DNA of 38,136 bases, taken from positions 1 to 38,136 of the forward strand of contig JAAYCJ010000278.1 in assembly GCA_012729815.1 (NCBI GenBank), read 5' to 3'. Positions 1,142 to 14,742 of this stretch are shown piece after piece. This DNA is from Phycisphaerae bacterium. Lineage in GTDB: Bacteria > Planctomycetota > Phycisphaerae > JAAYCJ01. Both the position numbers and the translations under genes were made by a program. A model generated the notes under the pieces. The model saw nothing but the letters and a program-made list of their open reading frames with translations, was not told where the DNA came from and did not search any database. The first letter of the stretch is position 1. Each line of letters begins with the position of its first letter.

Positions 1142-1654
1142 ATGACGGTGGTTCGACTGGCCCGGAACGGCTTGGTGGTATTGATGGGACCGGCGGGAAG
1201 CGGCAAGAGCTTCTTCGCCCGCCGGTTCTTTCGCCGGTCGCAGGCCGTCAGTTCGGATCGCTGCCGCGAGATGATTATCGACGATCCGCGGGTCCAGCGG
1301 GTCTCGGGTGACGCGTTCGAGTTGTTCTACACGATTGTCGAGATGCGGGCCAAGTACGGACGGCTGACCGTGGCGGACGCGACGCACCTGGCGGCTGAGT
1401 ACCGAGCGCGCCACCTGAAGATCGCGGAACGGTACAGCCGGCCGGTGTACCTGATCGTGTTCGAGGCGCCGCTGGAGACGTGTCTCGAACGCAATCGCGG
1501 TCGCCGGCGGCGGGTTGAAGAGGAAGTTATCCGTACGCAGTACGCGAAATTCGAGAATCAACGGGACGTGATCGAGGCGGAGAAGAGCCGGTATACCGAG
1601 CGGTTCGTGATCCGGCCGGGCGAACTGGAACGAACCACGGTGGAGCGGTTCTGA
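1142..1654 (+). CDS. stand-alone Pnkp-type polynucleotide kinase-like P-loop protein
   Basis: This 170-residue protein looks like the 5'-kinase domain of bacterial Pnkp, an RNA/DNA end-repair enzyme, without the phosphatase and ligase domains. The P-loop is G16-P-A-G-S-G-K22-S23. It is followed by S-S-D39-x-x-R42, matching the general-base Asp and the Arg of Pnkp kinases, then VADATH (the second strand Asp) and the lid arginines CLERNRGRRRR. Expected activity is phosphoryl transfer from ATP to a 5'-OH polynucleotide or another small hydroxylated substrate; the family is broad. ATG 1142 is chosen because the P-loop then lies at the usual distance from the N-terminus; TTG 1082 would add a tail without family character. 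It is first in an apparent operon, 16 bases before the DHS-like gene. No Hen1 or ligase partner is visible. Confidence 0.75.
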   Translation: MTVVRLARNGLVVLMGPAGSGKSFFARRFFRRSQAVSSDRCREMIIDDPRVQRVSGDAFELFYTIVEMRAKYGRLTVADATHLAAEYRARHLKIAERYSRPVYLIVFEAPLETCLERNRGRRRRVEEEVIRTQYAKFENQRDVIEAEKSRYTERFVIRPGELERTTVERF

Positions 1655-1670
1655 CAGGTAAGGGCAAACG

Positions 1671-2696
1671 ATGGAATACGCAGGACGATACCCTATTTTC
1701 GATTCGCGGCGGATCAGCACGTATCCGGTCTCGCAGCGGCAGAACAAGGTGCAACTGGCGGATCTGTCGCGGCCGGACGCGGTGATGGCAGCGCACTATG
1801 ACGTGTGCGAACAGGCGGAGAATATCGCAGCCCTGGCCGAGGCGATGGTGGCGGCGCGGCGTGCCGGTCGGGCGGTGATGTGGCTGACCGGGGCGCATCT
1901 GGTCAAGAACGGGATGGGGCCGCTGGTGGCGGACCTGGTGCGGCGCGGGCTGTTGACGCTGGCGGCGACCAACGGGGCGGGCGTGATCCACGACTTTGAG
2001 TTGGCTTTGTTCGGCGCGACCAGCGAATACGTGCCCAACGCCCTGCCGGAAGGCAAGTTCGGCATGGCGTACGAGCTTTCGTACATCAACGCTGCGCTGG
2101 CAGAGGCGGACGAGCGGAAGCTTGGCTACGGGGAAGGGGTCGGTCGGATGATCTGCGACGCGGAGTTTCGCCAGGCGGCGGCGAAGCGTCTTGGCCTCAA
2201 TTCGCCCATTCGTTTTCAGCATCCGGAGGTCTCGATTCTGGCCGCCTGCTACGAGACGGGCACGCCGCTGACCGTGCACGTGGGGATCGGGACGGACGTG
2301 ATCGACCAGCACGCGAACTTCGACGGCCGGGCCAAGGGCGGATGCTCGGGCCGCGACTTTCTGATTTTCACGCAACAGACGCCCGACCTGGGCGAGGGCG
2401 GCGTGTTTTTGAACGTCGGCTGCGCGGTGACCGGGCCGGAGGTGCTGCTCAAGGCGGTCTCGGTGGTCGGCAGCACGGGCCAGCCGCCGTACGGCCTGAT
2501 CACCGCCGACCTCGATTTGAAGGACTACCGCCACGAGGCGATGACCGACGAATCCAGCGCCAACTACTACTATCGCCATCACAAGAGCGTGGTGACCCGG
2601 ATTCCCGAGGCGTTCAGCGGCCGCGGGTTCTATATCCGCGGCGACCAGCGTCGGACCGTCCCGCGTCTCTACCAGGAAATCATTCGACGAGCCTGA
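1671..2696 (+). CDS. deoxyhypusine-synthase-fold protein, probably not a true DHS
   Basis: The 341-residue product has the landmarks of the deoxyhypusine synthase superfamily, an NAD-dependent Rossmann-like fold: a TGAHLVKNGMGPLVADL stretch near residue 72, then LAATNGAGVIHDFEL near residue 100 (the TTAGGVEEDL region of eukaryotic DHS), and HVGIGTD near residue 205. Aligned by eye, the catalytic His region (GGGVVKHH in human DHS) reads GCAVTGPE, and the lysine that forms the covalent imine (WGKI) reads VTRI. The spermidine-transfer chemistry is therefore unlikely, and the substrate is unknown. Bacteria have no eIF5A, so hypusination is not expected anyway. The gene lies between the Pnkp-like kinase and the PfkB-HAD gene with gaps of 16 and 13 bases, which argues for joint transcription and a shared pathway. 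Confidence 0.7.
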   Translation: MEYAGRYPIFDSRRISTYPVSQRQNKVQLADLSRPDAVMAAHYDVCEQAENIAALAEAMVAARRAGRAVMWLTGAHLVKNGMGPLVADLVRRGLLTLAATNGAGVIHDFELALFGATSEYVPNALPEGKFGMAYELSYINAALAEADERKLGYGEGVGRMICDAEFRQAAAKRLGLNSPIRFQHPEVSILAACYETGTPLTVHVGIGTDVIDQHANFDGRAKGGCSGRDFLIFTQQTPDLGEGGVFLNVGCAVTGPEVLLKAVSVVGSTGQPPYGLITADLDLKDYRHEAMTDESSANYYYRHHKSVVTRIPEAFSGRGFYIRGDQRRTVPRLYQEIIRRA

Positions 2697-2709
2697 GAAG
2701 GGGCAATGT

Positions 2710-4644
2710 ATGCAGGAATCGCGTCTTCGGGAAATCCTCGGCCACATGAGCAACGTCAGGATCGGCGTCATCGGCGACTTCTGCATCGACGCCTACTGGC
2801 GGTTTGACGAGAACGAAGTGGAACTGTCGGTGGAGACGGGTAAGCCGACCCACGCCATCGCGAAGCAGTACTATTCGCTGGGCGGAGCGGGCAACGTGGC
2901 CAAGAACCTGGCGGATCTGGGAGTCGGGCAGGTCTGGGCGTTCTGCGTGACCGGCCCCGACGTCTTCGGCCAGGCGATGCTGAACCTGATGCGAACCAAC
3001 GGCGTCCGGACGGACGACGCGGTGGTGCAGGAGAGGGACTGGGACACCAACGTCTACGCCAAACCGCACGTCGGGCCCGAGGAGCAGGAGCGGATCGACT
3101 TCGGGCGGTTCAACCGGATCGCGTCAGCCACCGTCGACCGGCTGCTGGCGAATTTGGAAAAGCGTCTGCCCGAATTGGACGGCCTGATCGTCAACCAGCA
3201 GCTCGCGCGCGGGCTGCACAGCGAGGCGATGATCGAGCGGCTTGGCGGGTTGCTCAAGCGATTCGGCGAGAAGGTGATCCTGCTGGACGCGAGGGACGTG
3301 CTTGGGCGATACGACGGGGTGATACTCAAGATCAATGCGGGCGAGGCGGCAAGGCTGTGCGGCCAGCCGATCGAGATACAGGACCGGCTGCCCATGGACA
3401 CGCTGGTGGACTTCGCCCGGCAGATTCACAGCCGCACTAATCGCGAGGTGATCATCACGCAGTCCGAGCGCGGCATCGTCGCGTTCGACGGCAAGGAGGT
3501 CAGCCAGGTGCCCGGAATCCTGATTCTGGGCGAGATCGATCCGTGCGGAGCGGGCGATACGACGGCGGCGGCGGTGACCGGAGCTCTGGCGGCCGGAACG
3601 ACGCTGCGTGAGGCGATCGAGTTGGGCAACATGGCCGCAGCGGTGGTCTGCCAGAAGCTGATGACCACCGGCACGGCGTCGCCCGAGGAGATCACAGCCC
3701 TGGTCCGCGACTGCGATCACGTCTACCGGGTGGAACTGGCTGAGGACGTGCGGCGTTCGCGGTACTGGGAAGACAGCGAGATCGAGGTGGCCAACCCGCA
3801 GGTGGAGTTGGGCCAGATACGACACGCGATCTTTGACCATGACGGCACCATCTCGACGCTGCGGCAGGGCTGGGAGCAGATCATGGAGCCGGTGATGGTC
3901 CGCTCGATCCTCGGGCCGCAGTACCTCGAGGCGCCGGAGGAGCTGTACCACCGCGTGCTCGAGCAGGTCCGCGACTACATCGACCAGTCGACCGGAATTG
4001 AGACGATCGTGCAGATGGAGACGCTGGTCGAGATGGTGCGGAAGTTCGGATTGGTGCCGGCCGACCAGGTGCTCGACGCGATGGGCTATAAGGCGATTTA
4101 CAACCAGGCACTGCTGGACATGGTCAACGCGCGGCTGGCCAAGCTCGAACGGGGCGAGTTGGACCCGGGCGACTATACGATCAAGGGGGCGGTGTGCTTT
4201 TTGCGGGCGCTGGCGGGTCGAGGGGTCAAGCTGTACCTGGCCAGCGGCACCGATCACGACAACGTGGTCCACGAAGCGGGGACGCTGGGCTACGCGGATC
4301 TGTTTGAGGGCCGGATCTACGGCTGGGCCGGACAGGGAACCGGGTCGGCCAAAAAGATGGTGATCGAGCGGATCATCCGCGAGCACAACCTCAAGGGCGC
4401 ACAACTCGCGTGCATCGGCGACGGGCCGGTGGAACTGCGGCTGTGCAAACGGGTGGACGGGGTGGCGGTGGGCGTGGCTTCGGACGAGGTCCGACGTTAC
4501 GGGCTCAGCGCGGTCAAGCGGAATCGGCTTATCAAGGCGGGGGCCGATCTGCTGACCGGCGACTTCTCGCAGTACGCCCGGCTGGAGGCGCTGCTGTTCG
4601 AGCAGCATACGATTGGGGCCGATCGCCTGCGTCTGGCCGAGTGA
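2710..4644 (+). CDS. PfkB-family sugar kinase fused to a HAD phosphatase
   Basis: A 644-residue bifunctional protein. Residues about 15-330 form a PfkB/ribokinase domain closest in style to the kinase half of HldE/RfaE: an IGDFCIDAYW start, a GGAGNVAKNLADLG substrate loop, and the anion-hole motif D277-P-C-G-A-G-D283, D283 being the catalytic base. Residues about 370-640 form a HAD hydrolase with nucleophile D376 and D378 in FDHDGT, a long helical cap, a TD pair in LASGTDHD, and IGDGPVE (D571, E575) for Mg2+. The expected chemistry is sugar phosphorylation followed by removal of a phosphate. In ADP-heptose synthesis HldE-type kinase and GmhB act in just that order, but this HAD has a large cap and resembles phosphoglycolate phosphatases, so that pathway is only a possibility. 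A purine-rich stretch (2695-2704) precedes the ATG. It is the last gene of the three-gene operon. Confidence 0.8.
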   Translation: MQESRLREILGHMSNVRIGVIGDFCIDAYWRFDENEVELSVETGKPTHAIAKQYYSLGGAGNVAKNLADLGVGQVWAFCVTGPDVFGQAMLNLMRTNGVRTDDAVVQERDWDTNVYAKPHVGPEEQERIDFGRFNRIASATVDRLLANLEKRLPELDGLIVNQQLARGLHSEAMIERLGGLLKRFGEKVILLDARDVLGRYDGVILKINAGEAARLCGQPIEIQDRLPMDTLVDFARQIHSRTNREVIITQSERGIVAFDGKEVSQVPGILILGEIDPCGAGDTTAAAVTGALAAGTTLREAIELGNMAAAVVCQKLMTTGTASPEEITALVRDCDHVYRVELAEDVRRSRYWEDSEIEVANPQVELGQIRHAIFDHDGTISTLRQGWEQIMEPVMVRSILGPQYLEAPEELYHRVLEQVRDYIDQSTGIETIVQMETLVEMVRKFGLVPADQVLDAMGYKAIYNQALLDMVNARLAKLERGELDPGDYTIKGAVCFLRALAGRGVKLYLASGTDHDNVVHEAGTLGYADLFEGRIYGWAGQGTGSAKKMVIERIIREHNLKGAQLACIGDGPVELRLCKRVDGVAVGVASDEVRRYGLSAVKRNRLIKAGADLLTGDFSQYARLEALLFEQHTIGADRLRLAE

Positions 4645-4899: not shown

Positions 4900-5403
4900 T
4901 CAGTCCTCCTGATCAAAGAGCCGCTTCTGACCCGGTTGGTCCTTGCCGTGGCGTTCCATGACCTGCCGGGCCTCGTCGATGAACTCGCCGACGTCGCGAA
5001 ATTCGCGGTAAACGCTGGCGAACCGGACGTAGGCGACCTCATCGAGCGTCCGCAAGCCTTCCGCCGCCCGCTGTCCGATGAAGCGGGAGGGAACCTCGCG
5101 GTCGAATTCGGAGAACAATTGCTCTTCCAGTTTGTCAACGAGCGATTCGAGCTGCTTTTCGCTCACCGGTCTCTTGTAGCACGCCTTCTGGAGGCCGACC
5201 AGGATCCGGCTTCGGTCATAGGGGACTCGTGAACCATCCTTCTTGACCACCACCAGGCGAACGGCGGCTTCGGCTTTTTCGTAGGTCGTGAACCGCTTGC
5301 CGCATTCCTGGCACTGACGGCGACGACGGATTACCGCCCCACCGTCCGTCTCGCGGGAGTCGATGACCCTCGCATTGTTGACCTTGCAGAACGGACATTG
5401 CAT
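4900..5403 (-). CDS. nrdR: NrdR, transcriptional repressor of ribonucleotide reductase genes
   Basis: This 167-residue protein has the complete NrdR layout: an N-terminal zinc ribbon with C3-P-F-C6 and C31-Q-E-C34, the DSRETD and IRRRRQC blocks around it, the RFTTYE motif, and an ATP-cone domain from about residue 48 to 138. NrdR senses ATP and dATP through the cone and represses nrd operons by binding tandem NrdR boxes. The length is slightly above the usual 150-160 because of a charged tail. No nrd gene is in the window, so it acts in trans, but its own promoter carries two box-like sites (5446-5493). It is transcribed towards the PfkB-HAD gene and ends 255 bases from it. Confidence 0.97.
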   Translation of the reverse strand: MQCPFCKVNNARVIDSRETDGGAVIRRRRQCQECGKRFTTYEKAEAAVRLVVVKKDGSRVPYDRSRILVGLQKACYKRPVSEKQLESLVDKLEEQLFSEFDREVPSRFIGQRAAEGLRTLDEVAYVRFASVYREFRDVGEFIDEARQVMERHGKDQPGQKRLFDQED

Positions 5404-5500: not shown

Positions 5501-5617
5501 GAAAAACATTAATCCTTTTCGCACAAAAAGTGAAAAAAGTTAAAAAAGGCAGATCGGGAAGCTAAGATGGATTTGCGAACGCAGGAAATCGGCACCGATC
5601 GATGCGGGAGAACAGCC

Positions 5618-6856
5618 ATGACCTCTCGACAGCGCGTGATGGCGGCGTTGAATCATCGGGAACCCGATCGGGTGGCGGTCGATCTGGGAGCGATGCGATC
5701 GACGGGAATCCAGGCCGTCGCCTACAACCGCCTGAAGGCGTATCTTGGCCAGGCGGGCGGACAGACCCGCGTCTACGATCTGATCCAACAGTTGGCCGAG
5801 CCGGAGGCGTGGGCCCTGGAGCGGTTCGGGATCGACGCGATGGACGTCGGCTGGGATTGGCCGGGCGAGGTGTGGAAGGACTGGGCGCTGCCGGACGGTT
5901 CGATCGGCCAGGTGCCCGGGTGGTTCAACCTGGTCCGGCCGACGGGTCCGTGGCAGATCACGGCCGATGACGGCACGCTGATCGCCGAGATGCCGGAAGG
6001 CTGCTTCTACTTCACACAGAAGCACTGGCCGCTGGAGCGGAACGGGATAACCGATGAGAACCTGCGGCGGCTGCCGGAACTGATGCCCAAGGTCATGTGG
6101 GCGGTTCCTTCGCCGATCTGGAAAGAAGGGCTGAGCGACGCCAATCTCGACGCGATCGCCCGACGCGCCCGGCACTTGCACGAGACGACCGATCGGGCGT
6201 TGATGATCGGGTTTGGCGGCAACCTCTTTGAGTGGGGCACGTTTCTGCTGGGGCTGGCGCGGTTCCTCGAAGACCTGATGCTGGAGCGGGCGAAGGTCGA
6301 ACGGCTGCTGGATCGGCTGGTGGAGATTCACCTGTCGAATCTCGATCGGCTCCTGCCGCGAATCGCCGGCACGGTGGACATCATCCAACTCGGCGACGAC
6401 CTGGGCACCGAGTCCGGGCCGTTCTTCTCGCCGCAGATCTACCGCGAGGTGTTTCGGCCTCGCCACGCGACGATCATCAACCACATCAAGAAGCACAGCG
6501 GCCTGAAGGTCTTCCTGCACAGTTGCGGGTCGATCTACAAGCTGCTGCCGGATCTGATCGAGGCGGGTTTCGAGGTGGTCAACCCCGTGCAGACCTCAGC
6601 GGCGGACATGGACCCGGTGCGTCTGAAGCGCGAGTTCGGGCGCGAGATCGCCTTCTGGGGCGGCGGCTGCGATACGCAGCGTGTGTTGCCCAGAGGCACA
6701 CCGCAGCAGGTCTACGACGACGTGAAGCGGCGGGTCGAGATTCTGGCTCCCGGCGGCGGCTTTGTCTTCACGCAGGTTCACAACATCCTGGCCGAGGTTC
6801 CGCCGGCCAACGTCGAGGCGATGTTCAAGGCCCTGGATGACCTGCGCGGCCGCTGA
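5618..6856 (+). CDS. UroD/MtaA-family methyltransferase-like protein
   Basis: The 412-residue protein belongs to the uroporphyrinogen decarboxylase superfamily, in the branch with MtaA/CmuA-type corrinoid methyltransferases rather than haem-pathway HemE. It starts with the branch signature MTSRQRVMAALNHREPDRV. A zinc-binding motif H301-S-C303-G is followed by AGFEVVNPVQ and then GGGC351DTQ; the HxC plus a downstream Cys is the zinc set of methylcobamide:thiol methyltransferases, although the 48-residue spacing is shorter than in MtaA. HemE's N-terminal arginine pattern is absent. ATG 5618 is chosen from the family start and the GGGAG before it; ATG 5567 would add 17 unconserved residues. The gene stands alone, divergent from nrdR and convergent with the next gene (11 bases apart). 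The substrate is unknown. A functional link with the B12-binding protein is possible but not shown. Confidence 0.8.
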   Translation: MTSRQRVMAALNHREPDRVAVDLGAMRSTGIQAVAYNRLKAYLGQAGGQTRVYDLIQQLAEPEAWALERFGIDAMDVGWDWPGEVWKDWALPDGSIGQVPGWFNLVRPTGPWQITADDGTLIAEMPEGCFYFTQKHWPLERNGITDENLRRLPELMPKVMWAVPSPIWKEGLSDANLDAIARRARHLHETTDRALMIGFGGNLFEWGTFLLGLARFLEDLMLERAKVERLLDRLVEIHLSNLDRLLPRIAGTVDIIQLGDDLGTESGPFFSPQIYREVFRPRHATIINHIKKHSGLKVFLHSCGSIYKLLPDLIEAGFEVVNPVQTSAADMDPVRLKREFGREIAFWGGGCDTQRVLPRGTPQQVYDDVKRRVEILAPGGGFVFTQVHNILAEVPPANVEAMFKALDDLRGR

Positions 6857-9453: not shown

Positions 9454-12400
9454 ATGCATGCATCAGAGTTGCTCAAGGAATTCGGCGATCCGTCGGTGGC
9501 CTATCGGGCCAAGCCGTTCTGGGCCTGGAACGCGGCCCTGACGGGCGATGAGCTTCGCCGGCAGATCCGGCTGTTCGCGCAGATGGGGATGGGCGGCTAC
9601 TTCATGCACTCCCGGGTCGGGCTCAATACCGCCTATCTGAGCGACGAGTGGTTCGACCTGGTCAATCAGTGCATCGACGAGGCGGAGAAGACCGGGACGC
9701 AGGCGTGGCTCTACGACGAGGACCGCTGGCCGTCCGGGGCGGCGGGCAGCCTCGTCACCCGGGACGAGCGGTATCGAGCCCGGCGTCTGGCGGTTTCGCG
9801 CCATGCGCCCGAGGGTTTCGACTGGCCCGCCGATCCGTCGCGGAACTTCGTGTTCGGCGCGGTCTTCGAGGACGAACGGATCGGCTGGTATAAGAAGCTC
9901 GAGCAGAAGCCGGACATCACCATTCTGCCGCAGTACGCCGAGGTGCTCAAGTTCTCGATCGAGCTTCAGCCCAACAGTCCGTGGTACAACGGGTATGCCT
10001 ATCTGGACACGATGAATCCCGAGGCCGTTGCGCGGTTCATGGAGGTAACGCACGAGGCCTATTTGCGACACTGCGGCGAAAAATTCGGCAAGAGTGTGCC
10101 CGGATTTTTCACCGACGAGCCGAACTGCGGCGAGCCATGGCGGAACGAAGGTGTGGTCCAGTGGACCGAGGCGCTGCCGCACCGGTTCCAGGAAATGTTC
10201 GGCTATGACCTGCTCCAACATCTTCCGGAGCTGTTTTTTGACACAACGGGCGCCGACGAGAGCCGCGCCCGCTATCATTACCATCGCTGCAGGACCCGCC
10301 TGTTCGTCGAGTCGTTCGCCAAGCCGATCGGCGAGTGGTGCAGCCGCAACAACCTGTTGTTCACCGGCCACGTCCTCTGCGAAGACCCGCTGAGTCACCA
10401 AGTCAGCGCCGTAGGGGCGGCCATGCAGTTCTACCCGTACATGCAGGCCCCCGGAATCGACATCCTGACCCAGTACCGGATCGAGTACCTCGCGGCCAAA
10501 CAGGTGGCCTCGGTCGCCCGTCAGACCGGCCGCAAGTGGGTGCTCTCGGAGCTCTACGGATGCACCGGCTGGGAGACCACATTCGAGGCGTACAAGCACA
10601 GCGGGGACTGGCAGGCGGCTTTGGGCATCACGCTGCGCTGCCCGCACCTTTCGTGGTATTCGATGGCCGGCGAGGCCAAGCGCGACTACCCGGCGTCGAT
10701 CCATTTCCAGTCGCCCTGGTGGAAACAATTCAAGACGGTCGAGGACTACTTCTCGCGGGTGAACGTGCTCCTGAGCGACGGCGAGGCGGTCTGCGATCTG
10801 GCGGTGATCCATCCCATCGAGAGCTACTACCTGTACATGAAGACCTTTGACAGCAAGGAGCCGCGCTTCATGCGGATGGATCAGGACTACCACCAGTTCG
10901 CCGCCGGGCTGCTGGGCGCGCACCTGGACTTCGATTTCGCCGACGAGCACCTGCTGACGGAACTGGCGGCCAGTGTCGAGCGCGATCAGGCCGGGCCGCA
11001 CCTGCAAATCGGGCAGGGCAAATACCGCGCCGTGCTCGTTCCGCCGGTGGCCACGCTGCGGCGGACCACGCTCGATCTGCTGCGGCGGTTCAGCGACGCC
11101 GGCGGCAAGGTGGTCTTCGCCGGATCGGCCGCCGGATTCGTCGAGGGCGAGTCGAACGGGGACGTCAAGGCGTTCGCCGAGGGCAAGACCGTCGAGAACA
11201 ACGCCGATGCGATCGCCGCCTCGCTGCAGGACAAGGTCCGCCGCGTGTCGATCCGCGACGCCGCCGGGCGCGAAGCCGCCGACGTGCTGCACCAGTTCCG
11301 CCGGATCGGCGACGACTGGGTGCTGTTCCTGGTCAATACCAACCGCAAGGAAGCCCACGAACAACTGACGGTCCGTCTGCAACTTGACCTGCCGCGCGGC
11401 GGGCAGATCCAGCTCTGGGACACCCTGGCCGCCAGGCAGTACAAACTGGCCGGCGAACTGACGTACAAGACCGCGACGTTCAAGATCGACATTCCGCCCA
11501 GCGGATCGCGACTGATCGTCGTCTCGAGCCAGCCGAAAGAACTGCCACCGCTGCCGAAGCCTCAGCCGACCGGCAATCAGGTCAAGCTCGATCCGGGCGG
11601 ATGGAGCTTCCTGCTGGACGACCACAACGTCCTGGTGCTCGACCGGGCCGACGCCAAGGCGGACGTCGGCGACAAGAAGCCGTTCTCGCGAACGCAGATG
11701 GAAATCCTGCGGCTGGACAACGAGCTGCGCGACGCCCTGGACCTCTCGCCTCGCGCGGGCCACATGGTTCAGCCGTGGATGACCAAGGACGAGCCGCTGG
11801 GCCCGACCGCTCCGCTCAAGCTGGCTTACAAATTCAACGTCAAAACCCTGCCTTCCGGTCCGGTGCTGCTGGCGTTGGAGCAGCCGGAGCGATGGCGGAT
11901 CGAATTGAACGGCCGGTACGTCACCTCGGACATGGCCAGCGGCTGGTGGGTGGACCCGGCGATCCGGACCATCCGGCTCGATCCGGAGCTGCTTAAGCGC
12001 GGGCGGAACGTTCTGACCCTTGAAGGCCAGTTCGACCGCAAAGCCGACCTGGAAATCGTCTACCTGCTCGGGCAATTCGGCGTCGATACCGACGGCAAGA
12101 ACGTGGCGATCAGCCGCATGCCGTCCAAGCTGGACTTCGGCAAATGGCAGGACCAGTCGCTGCCCTTCTACAGCGGCAACATGATCTACCGCATGCCGTT
12201 CGAGCTCGAACCGGCCGAGGGCGCTCGATACATCCTGAGCATTCCGTCGTTCGGGGCCGCGGCCGTCGAAGTCGCGGTCAACACGGCCGAACCGGTCGTG
12301 CTGCCCTGGCCGGACTACCGGCTCGATATCACCGAGACGCTCCAGAAGGGCAAGAACGTCATCGACATCAAGCTGCTCGGCTCCCGGCGCAACGCCTTCG

Positions 12401-13527: not shown

Positions 13528-14742
13528 CTACAGGCCCGAGAGCAGCAGATGCGATTCGATGATGGGCAGGGCGTAGAAATCGTCCAGGGCTCGGCCAATC
13601 CCCCCCATCGTCACCGCCTGGTCCGCCAACTGCGACCACTCGACCCGCACCTTGTTGGTCGGCGGCGCGGTGCGGTCGGCGATCATGTCCAGCAGCGTCA
13701 CCAGGAACAACTCCCCCGCCAGCGAGATCTGGCCGGCCAGAACGATCGTCTCGGGATTGAACAGGTTGGCCAGGCTCGCCAGAGCCAGTCCCAACCATCG
13801 CGCCGCCTGCTCGAGGGCGTACTTGGCTGCGGTCTGACCCGACCGCGCCTCATTGACGATGTCCTCGACCGTGATCGATCCCTTGTCCCGCCCGATCAGC
13901 TTCTGATAGAAATCGACCAGCGCGTAGTTCGAGGCAAGCGTGTTGAGGCAGCCGCGATTGCCGCAGCCGCACAACGGGCCGTCCGGGTCGAGGCACACGT
14001 GGCCCAGCTTGCCCGCCACCGCCTCGGCGCCGGCGTAAATCTTGCCGTCCAGCACCATTCCCAACTGGATTTCCGATCCCACGTTCACGTACAGAAAGCT
14101 CTTGATGTCCTTGCAGACGCCGAACCGCGCCTCGGCCAGCGTGGCCAGGCGGATGTCGTTTTCCACCCAGACCCGGCAGCCGAACTGGCTGCGGATGTAC
14201 CGGCCCAGTTCCATCCCCTTCCACCACGTTCCCAGCCGCGTCTCGGTCAGCGTCTGCTCCTTGACGTCCAGCCGGCCCGGCACGCCCAGCGAAATGCCGA
14301 GGATATCCTCACGCCGACAGCGGTCCTCGATCAGACGGATCAGCCCGCGGCCCAGCGACAGCAGCAGGTGGTTGCGATCCTCCAGGACCGTTGGCTCCTC
14401 CACTTGATGGGCCACCACCGTGCCCAGCAGGTTCGACAGCGTCAGTTGAACCTGGTTCGGCATCAGGTAGCCGCCGACGATCATGTACCGTTTCGGGTTG
14501 ATCTGCAAGAGCTTGGGCCGGCGGCCCGCTTTGGACCGGCCCGGGCCCTTTTCCTGCAGGATGCCTTCCTTCAGCAGCGACTCGACGTGGACCTGCATGG
14601 TGCCCTGCCGCATCCCGGTCAACGCCACGATGTCCCGCCGGGCCAGGGTCTTGCCGCCCTTGAACAGGCTCAGGATGAGCTGGCGGTTGTACTGGTTGAT
14701 CTTGTCCCGCCCGACCAGCGGTACATCGAGATTCTTGGCCAT
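13528..14742 (-). CDS. ROK-family transcriptional regulator (NagC/XylR/Mlc-like)
   Basis: The product (404 aa) has an N-terminal winged helix (about residues 15-80; INQYNRQLILSLF then ARRDIVALTGM) and a sugar-kinase-like ROK domain. The zinc-binding ROK signature is present as GHVCLDPDGPLCGCGNRGC, with the CGCGxxGC cysteines complete. VENDIRLATLAE corresponds to the END motif. The Glu of the usual E-x-G-H sugar-binding motif is Lys (AGKLGH), and the residue after GC-L is Asn rather than Glu, so sugar recognition may differ or be lost. ATG 14742 is preferred over 14799 because GAGGAGG sits just upstream and the first 19 extra residues are not conserved-looking. It probably controls carbohydrate genes, perhaps the neighbouring glycosidase, but this is inference. 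Confidence 0.9.
   Translation of the reverse strand: MAKNLDVPLVGRDKINQYNRQLILSLFKGGKTLARRDIVALTGMRQGTMQVHVESLLKEGILQEKGPGRSKAGRRPKLLQINPKRYMIVGGYLMPNQVQLTLSNLLGTVVAHQVEEPTVLEDRNHLLLSLGRGLIRLIEDRCRREDILGISLGVPGRLDVKEQTLTETRLGTWWKGMELGRYIRSQFGCRVWVENDIRLATLAEARFGVCKDIKSFLYVNVGSEIQLGMVLDGKIYAGAEAVAGKLGHVCLDPDGPLCGCGNRGCLNTLASNYALVDFYQKLIGRDKGSITVEDIVNEARSGQTAAKYALEQAARWLGLALASLANLFNPETIVLAGQISLAGELFLVTLLDMIADRTAPPTNKVRVEWSQLADQAVTMGGIGRALDDFYALPIIESHLLLSGL

Follow-up and report, generated by a model that had tools for sequence, protein, structure and literature searches.

ADP-heptose 6-epimerase (HldD) epimerizes C6 at the ADP-heptose stage and uses an NADP cofactor. Amongst enzymes linked to the nickel-pincer nucleotide (NPN), the TIGR00300 family is named by NCBIfam as an NPN-dependent ornithine cyclodeaminase; no literature on such an enzyme was found, and the NPN dependence of TIGR00300 is thus taken from its NCBIfam name. 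In about 15% of the genomes analyzed in a 2024 study, larB, larC and larE were present without larA (PMC11796402), and therefore further NPN enzymes must exist.

The window, i.e., the whole 38,136-nucleotide stretch of DNA analyzed here, carries three genes on the plus strand at 1142-1654, 1671-2696 and 2710-4644, and their close spacing, with intergenic gaps of 16 and 13 bases, was confirmed as initially annotated. Third-position G+C was 0.79-0.87 in all three ORFs, which is the codon-position pattern of real genes, and the motifs read from the sequence were intact (Walker A GPAGSGKS, PfkB GAGD, and the HAD motifs DHDGT and GDGPVE). With a probability that we place at roughly 0.6, the middle gene encodes an NPN-dependent heptose-phosphate epimerase that replaces HldD and feeds the HldA-like kinase and phosphatase fused in the third gene product. 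On the same reading, its family would add a third class of NPN enzymes to the two formed by LarA and the TIGR00300 cyclodeaminases, and would be the missing, phosphosugar-acting heptose epimerase of HldD-less ADP-heptose makers in both bacteria and archaea.

The middle protein (1671-2696, plus strand, 341 aa), a predicted NPN-dependent sugar-phosphate epimerase, belongs to the NCBIfam family GSU2086 (NF052581), with 310 bits against a cut-off of 250 over positions 2-300 of 301. NCBIfam assigns no function to this family, whose founder is GSU2086 of Geobacter sulfurreducens. The AlphaFold2 model (pLDDT 96.7) predicted a fold of the deoxyhypusine synthase (DHS) type, and its best Foldseek match was the DHS structure 8put (TM 0.53/0.57), which supports the fold originally proposed for this protein. 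By profile, the closest relatives were ArgZ/AgrE and TIGR00300; the best PDB match was ArgZ (6juy, 5.8e-6), with DHS at just 0.043, and hhalign aligned the GSU2086 family to TIGR00300 at an E value of 1.2e-7. This kinship was seen by profile-profile comparison alone, as the middle protein itself had no match to TIGR00300 (cut-off 410.8 bits) at E<=0.001. Residues invariant across 61 aligned homologs include H76, H107, E110, D209, K261, D282 and R302. The deoxyhypusine synthase equivalog NF002630 reached 21 bits against 364, over positions 46-100 only, and deoxyhypusine or homospermidine synthesis was ruled out by scores far under the cut-off together with the sugar-type gene context. No Lar_N (PF09861) match was present in the middle protein, which is therefore not a LarA member; LarA homologs are encoded elsewhere in the genome.

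The third gene (2710-4644) encodes a PfkB-HAD fusion of 644 aa, as its domain matches bear out. The PfkB domain (2710-3744, residues ~1-345), with an intact catalytic GAGD, is predicted to have the HldA-type heptose-7-phosphate kinase fold. By structural comparison this half is nearest to HldA, as the top seven Foldseek matches were all Burkholderia cenocepacia HldA (4e-25, target TM 0.85), followed by ribokinase at 7.5e-18; against the HldA equivalog rfaE_dom_I it scored 130 bits (1.4e-37), below the cut-off of 345. The fused HAD phosphatase domain (3796-4644, residues ~363-644; PF00702, 8.3e-10) contains the motifs DHDGT, SGT, K and GDGPVE and had a weak PDB match to 2p9j (7e-4). GmhB/HAD-IIIA models did not match the fusion, although they did match GmhB neighbors in other loci, and a GmhB identity for this half was ruled out. 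The initial annotation had remarked that the gene order recalls ADP-heptose synthesis and that the HAD domain is not GmhB-like, and both observations held. PfkB and HAD were fused in 13 of 80 loci, and the window copy of the GSU2086 gene falls in the PfkB-HAD-fused clade of the tree, not in the LPS-operon clade.

In homologous loci, where genes were called by codon-position G+C, the conserved unit consists of GSU2086 and a PfkB sugar kinase, often with a HAD protein, and is found across many bacterial and archaeal phyla; a composition first described as unusual is thus widely kept. Other GSU2086 genes lie within gmhA-hldA/E-gmhB-hldC heptose operons. A Woesearchaeota locus has the order GmhA-GSU2086-HldA-GmhB-HldC, with HldA and HldC above curated cut-offs (L125), planctomycete relatives have the order LpxK-GSU2086-HldE-SIS-GmhB-GT9, and GSU2086-SIS fusion proteins were also found. 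The genome containing the window encodes HldE, GmhA, GmhB, LpxK, heptosyltransferases and LarA/B/C, and HldD was not found in it. Amongst 150 genomes, HldD was present in 3 of 55 with GSU2086, one of the three being a partial match, versus 69 of 95 without it (p 5e-17; permutation within families, 1e-5). When the comparison was confined to the 57 genomes encoding a heptose-1-phosphate adenylyltransferase, HldD occurred in 0/26 GSU2086 carriers versus 28/31 non-carriers (p 3e-13). Genomes lacking HldD might instead use D,D-heptose.

By locus number, GSU2086 of Geobacter lies between hldE and gmhA. The Geobacter larB- and larE-type identities referred to below are probable and were taken by us from product names. 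Literature searches on the heptose configuration of Geobacter LPS and on an alternative HldD returned nothing useful. In a 39-gene list from Geobacter Tn-Seq, GSU2086 (-3.2), hldE (-3.1) and gmhA (-3.7) share an electrode-growth defect, and the same list includes the nikMN nickel transporter (-2.0), a LarB-type protein (-2.2) and its neighbor (-2.3), and a LarE-type protein (-2.6) (PMC5585712). GSU0140, GSU0141 and GSU0536 were encountered in the literature in this Tn-Seq paper alone (PMC5585712).

Many loci carry ROK kinase, SIS, GlcNAc-2-epimerase-like or GFO/IDH genes instead of LPS genes, and therefore some members may act on a substrate other than heptose. These loci also favor a possible, though clearly less probable, alternative in which the enzyme depends on NPN and catalyzes another reaction (isomerization, elimination, or epimerization at another carbon) leading to a different heptose or a rare sugar, with the absence of HldD reflecting no need for L-glycero-heptose; the TIGR00300 relatives, by their family name, eliminate ammonia and do not epimerize. 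Against it stand the near-perfect exclusion of HldD amongst adenylyltransferase-encoding genomes, the ordered placement of GSU2086 within complete heptose operons, and a kinase that is HldA-like even in the trio form.

NPN genes larB, larC and larE flank GSU2086 in Flavobacteriia and Paenibacillaceae. Two Flavobacteriia loci (L073, L074) have the order larE-larB-alkaline phosphatase-larC-GSU2086-PfkB/HAD-ROK-SIS, with the lar genes assigned by model (larE, TIGR00268, 287 bits; larB, NF033503, 263; larC, PF01969, 383), and clustering shows that a third locus (L075) keeps this order, with larE-larB-larC-GSU2086. In Cohnella (L119), larE, larC1 and larC2, assigned by model, and larB, assigned by clustering, surround HAD-GSU2086x2-PfkB-SIS, and clustering placed the same lar genes in two Paenibacillus loci (L103, L114). 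Cross-genome counts of NPN genes cover larB and larC. Amongst 61 class relatives, larB or larC was found in 28/28 genomes with GSU2086 versus 12/33 without, and larC in 27/28 versus 8/33 (p 3e-9). Where LarA and TIGR00300 were both absent, larB and larC were present together in 6/6 GSU2086 carriers versus 2/23 non-carriers (p 6e-5). The larB association was not significant within families (p 0.15), and co-occurrence, clear in the class, was weaker in other phyla, where about 11 of 40 GSU2086 genomes yielded neither larC nor a full or partial larB. Most of these were MAGs; three are 4-9 Mb in size, and NPN may therefore not be needed by every member. NPN as the cofactor of the GSU2086 family is well supported, and we infer that the protein binds it.

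The NAD binding first attributed to the middle protein is probably wrong, as the evidence favors NPN. A phosphosugar enzyme that is NAD-dependent, DHS-like and free of nickel, with the larBCE association being lineage noise or due to LarA, would agree with DHS as the nearest Foldseek fold, with the crystallization of AgrE with NAD+ (title of 6lrg), and with the GSU2086 genomes in which larB and larC were not found. We regard it as unlikely, since larB, larC and larE adjoin GSU2086 in at least two phyla, all six carriers without LarA and TIGR00300 retain larB and larC, and Tn-Seq groups GSU2086 with nickel uptake and LarB/LarE-type genes.

The first gene (1142-1654, plus strand, 170 aa from ATG) encodes a stand-alone Pnkp-type P-loop kinase domain; a TTG at 1082 is a possible alternative start giving a longer protein. 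It matched only positions 4-151 of the 851 in TIGR04075, the N-terminal kinase of Pnkp (3e-35), its top PDB match was 4gp6 (1e-27), and with 121 bits against 750 it falls outside bacterial Pnkp, the full 851-position protein. By spacing it belongs to the same transcription unit, but it is an incidental neighbor outside the conserved system: in the neighborhood search suggested in the initial annotation, the PfkB partner (often with HAD) proved conserved, whereas a Pnkp-like relative was absent from 109/109 other GSU2086 neighborhoods fetched, even at E<=1, which removes this kinase as a system member. Pnkp-based RNA repair was ruled out, as the conserved association is absent. Because the kinase lies outside the unit, the nucleotide or RNA-end part of the short pathway once suggested is unsupported, and its phosphorylated-sugar part stands. 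A three-gene pathway that includes the Pnkp-like kinase and acts on nucleic-acid ends or nucleotides would fit the shared strand and close spacing, but is already largely refuted and highly improbable given those 109 neighborhoods and the ties of the other two genes to sugar, not nucleic-acid, genes wherever examined.

For the favored NPN-dependent epimerase, a hydride would leave a hydroxyl-bearing carbon of heptose phosphate, or of a close phosphosugar, for the NPN of the 1671-2696 enzyme and return on the other face, the net result being an epimerization in place of HldD in heptose biosynthesis; we infer C6 as the position and the sugar phosphate as the stage of action. The epimerized product would then be phosphorylated at C1 by the fused HldA-like kinase, and the HAD phosphatase would take off the original (C7) phosphate, giving a sugar 1-phosphate for the HldC/HldE adenylyltransferases, whose genes lie at other sites in the genome.

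GSU2086 is thus a widespread candidate family for a missing NPN enzyme, to which a pathway and a phenotype can be linked and whose substrate class can be tested. If this is true, NPN chemistry reaches phosphosugars, and a possible route to L-glycero-heptose in organisms without HldD would be explained. The Geobacter Tn-Seq result, so far unexplained, in which a nickel transporter and larB/larE-like genes score together with heptose genes, can also be read in this light. Compared with known systems, the window protein resembles TIGR00300 and the C-terminal domain of ArgZ-AgrE in kind of fold and in the HD..E motif, but differs in conserved residues and in its sugar-type gene context. LarA racemases/epimerases likewise co-occur with larB and larC and share the predicted hidden-hydride epimerization of a carbinol carbon, although the Lar_N search detected no sequence similarity. 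Deoxyhypusine synthase is alike in overall fold (TM about 0.5-0.57), and differs in score and context as described above. The fusion shares with HldA/HldE plus GmhB the HldA fold and the kinase-then-phosphatase logic, whereas its HAD domain is of a separate subfamily from GmhB/HAD-IIIA and is joined to the kinase. HldD has the same proposed role as GSU2086 and a nearly mutually exclusive distribution, but is an unrelated, NADP-dependent enzyme of the short-chain-dehydrogenase type.

All three open reading frames lie on the forward strand, at 1142-1654, 1671-2696 and 2710-4644, with intergenic gaps of 16 and 13 bases and a codon-position composition equal to that of genes of their own genome, as the initial annotation had it. 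Domain searches agreed with its naming of the first product as a Pnkp-like kinase, here a stand-alone Pnkp-type kinase domain, and of the third as a PfkB-HAD fusion. The second protein had been described as DHS-like, which holds for its fold but not for its sequence: it scored 21 bits against the DHS model, far under the cut-off of 364, and 310 bits against NCBIfam NF052581 'GSU2086 family' (cut-off 250). Its membership in this family is certain, and the gene is the only one of its kind in its genome. Downstream, on the opposite strand, lies an NrdR regulator gene (4900-5403; TIGR00244, 182 bits), and corrinoid-protein and URO-D/MtaA-like methyltransferase genes occur on either side of the operon (101-823 and 5567-6856). 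A URO-D gene also separates GSU2086 from PfkB-HAD at neighbourhood L062 (3494-4624), and a probable one, judged by position and sequence start only, is found in the LPS cluster of the own genome (L145, 9971-11080).

Neighbourhoods came from class relatives and from a single pass over GTDB species genomes; the 80 loci of the latter belong to Planctomycetota, Bacteroidota, Armatimonadota, Chloroflexota, Bacillota, Poribacteria, Acidobacteriota, Pseudomonadota, Bathy-, Brock- and Woesearchaeota, among other groups. On the same strand and within 3 kb of GSU2086, a PfkB relative was present in 52/80 loci and a relative of the window's HAD in 43/80, with the two fused in 13; a Pnkp-like gene was found in none of the 80, even at E<=1. 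Thus, the idea of a three-gene system gives way to a two-gene module, GSU2086 plus PfkB (plus HAD), with the Pnkp-like gene as a local neighbour outside it.

Two kinds of gene row were observed. In one, the trio HAD-GSU2086-PfkB frequently has a ROK kinase and a SIS isomerase behind it; the other is an LPS or heptose operon with GSU2086 inside. Planctomycete relatives show the latter as LpxK-GSU2086-HldE-SIS-GmhB-GT9. A Lachnospiraceae genome has GSU2086-HldE together with divergent GmhA and GmhB genes; GmhB, GmhA and HldE were each the best model for these products, yet under equivalog cut-offs. The row is complete in a Woesearchaeote, as a GmhA-GSU2086-HldA-GmhB-HldC operon whose HldA and HldC exceed curated cut-offs. 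In the family tree, heptose-type rows are scattered over several separate positions, and the window copy falls within a PfkB-HAD-fused clade of Phycisphaerae and Bacteroidota. In structure, Foldseek places the window kinase much closer to HldA (4e-25, target TM 0.85) than to the next family (7.5e-18), although its sequence score is well below the HldA equivalog cut-off. Altogether, a heptose-phosphate or close phosphosugar is quite probably the GSU2086 substrate. Three Woesearchaeota (L124-L126) have genomes of 1.0-1.3 Mb with ADP-heptose genes and a heptosyltransferase-like GT9; the complete operon is that of L125, and larC occurs in two of the three. At L119, positions 9980-11968 encode a protein of 662 residues with two GSU2086 domains in tandem (NF052581, 694 bits over two stretches), and ORFs of similar length occur at L103 and L114.

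HldD, the ADP-heptose 6-epimerase, epimerises a carbinol carbon using NADP. Searched in 150 genomes, it was present in 3/55 carriers of GSU2086 versus 69/95 non-carriers (p 5e-17; p 1e-5 when labels were permuted within taxonomic families) and, among the 57 genomes with heptose-1-phosphate adenylyltransferase, in 0/26 carriers versus 28/31 non-carriers (p 3e-13). Several families (f3, f7, f10 and f20) contain both states in alternation. In the own genome, one contig carries LpxK-HldE-GmhA-GmhB together with heptosyltransferases and a second carries HldA-HldC; LarA, LarB and LarC are present as well, and HldD was not found. A distribution of this kind is typical of one enzyme substituting for another, and we consider it likely, at a probability of roughly 0.6, that GSU2086 replaces HldD.

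The fold relatives of GSU2086 are DHS and the ArgZ/AgrE/LOR-SDH group, and by sequence profile the ArgZ group (5.8e-6) came ahead of DHS (0.043). Profile-profile comparison matched it to TIGR00300 (E 1.2e-7), whose dependence on the nickel-pincer nucleotide (NPN) is stated in its NCBIfam name ('nickel-pincer nucleotide-dependent'), no paper behind it having been found. As a separate line of evidence, NPN biosynthesis genes adjoin GSU2086 in Flavobacteriia (larE, larB and larC directly upstream) and surround its unit in Cohnella and Paenibacillus (larE, larB, larC1 and larC2). Among 61 class relatives, larB or larC occurred in 28/28 carriers versus 12/33 non-carriers. All six of these carriers that lack both LarA and TIGR00300 (G022, G030, G054, G057, G058 and G059) retain larB and larC, so that GSU2086 is the only known candidate client there. 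Across the 150 genomes, larB was found in 51/55 carriers versus 41/95 others (p 3e-10); within families the association lost significance (p 0.15), since larB is close to saturation in the mixed ones. Of 40 carrier genomes from other phyla, 26 have larC and 3 more have larB, whole or partial; the remainder are a real weakness of the NPN link, unless their assemblies are incomplete. Overall, we regard this link as strong and highly likely. The Flavobacteriia row encloses an alkaline phosphatase gene (L074, 7406-8833; L073, 4278-5705). In Cohnella and Paenibacillus, some 7 kb separate larC1 from larC2, which are on opposite strands and flank the GSU2086 unit; the split is seen at L119 (5521-6519, reverse; 13685-14233, forward), L103 and L114. 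Two class relatives of one genus (G004 and G037) have LarB and LarC and lack LarA, TIGR00300 and GSU2086, and may hold a further unknown NPN client.

Table 1 of a Geobacter study (PMC5585712) lists 39 genes required for growth on an electrode, including hldE (-3.1), GSU2086 (-3.2), gmhA (-3.7), nikMN for nickel uptake (-2.0), the 'phosphoribosylaminoimidazole carboxylase-like' GSU0140 (-2.2), the adjoining GSU0141 (-2.3) and the 'adenosine nucleotide alpha-hydrolase superfamily' GSU0536 (-2.6). LarB carries an AIR-carboxylase domain. Going by these product names, GSU0140 fits LarB and GSU0536 fits LarE, and GSU0141 is possibly LarC. In the sections examined, the authors of that study do not draw this connection.

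Among the residues invariant in an alignment of 61 sequences, His76, His107, Glu110, Asp209, Lys261, Asp282 and Arg302 may serve in cofactor binding, acid-base catalysis or phosphate binding. Epimerisation could take place at the stage of sedoheptulose, heptose-7-phosphate, bisphosphate or 1-phosphate; an early stage is favoured by the fusion of GSU2086 to a SIS domain, identified by model in an archaeon (L084) and probably shared by equal-length ORFs in Chloroflexota and other archaea (L079, L083, L085 and L086). The HldA-like domain would then phosphorylate C1, and the HAD domain would take off the other phosphate. In LarA-type NPN enzymes, a hydride is shuttled between the substrate carbon and the cofactor by proton-coupled hydride transfer (PMC12611868). 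A LarA-like hydride transfer on a phosphosugar would epimerise a carbinol carbon, which is the same chemistry as that of HldD.
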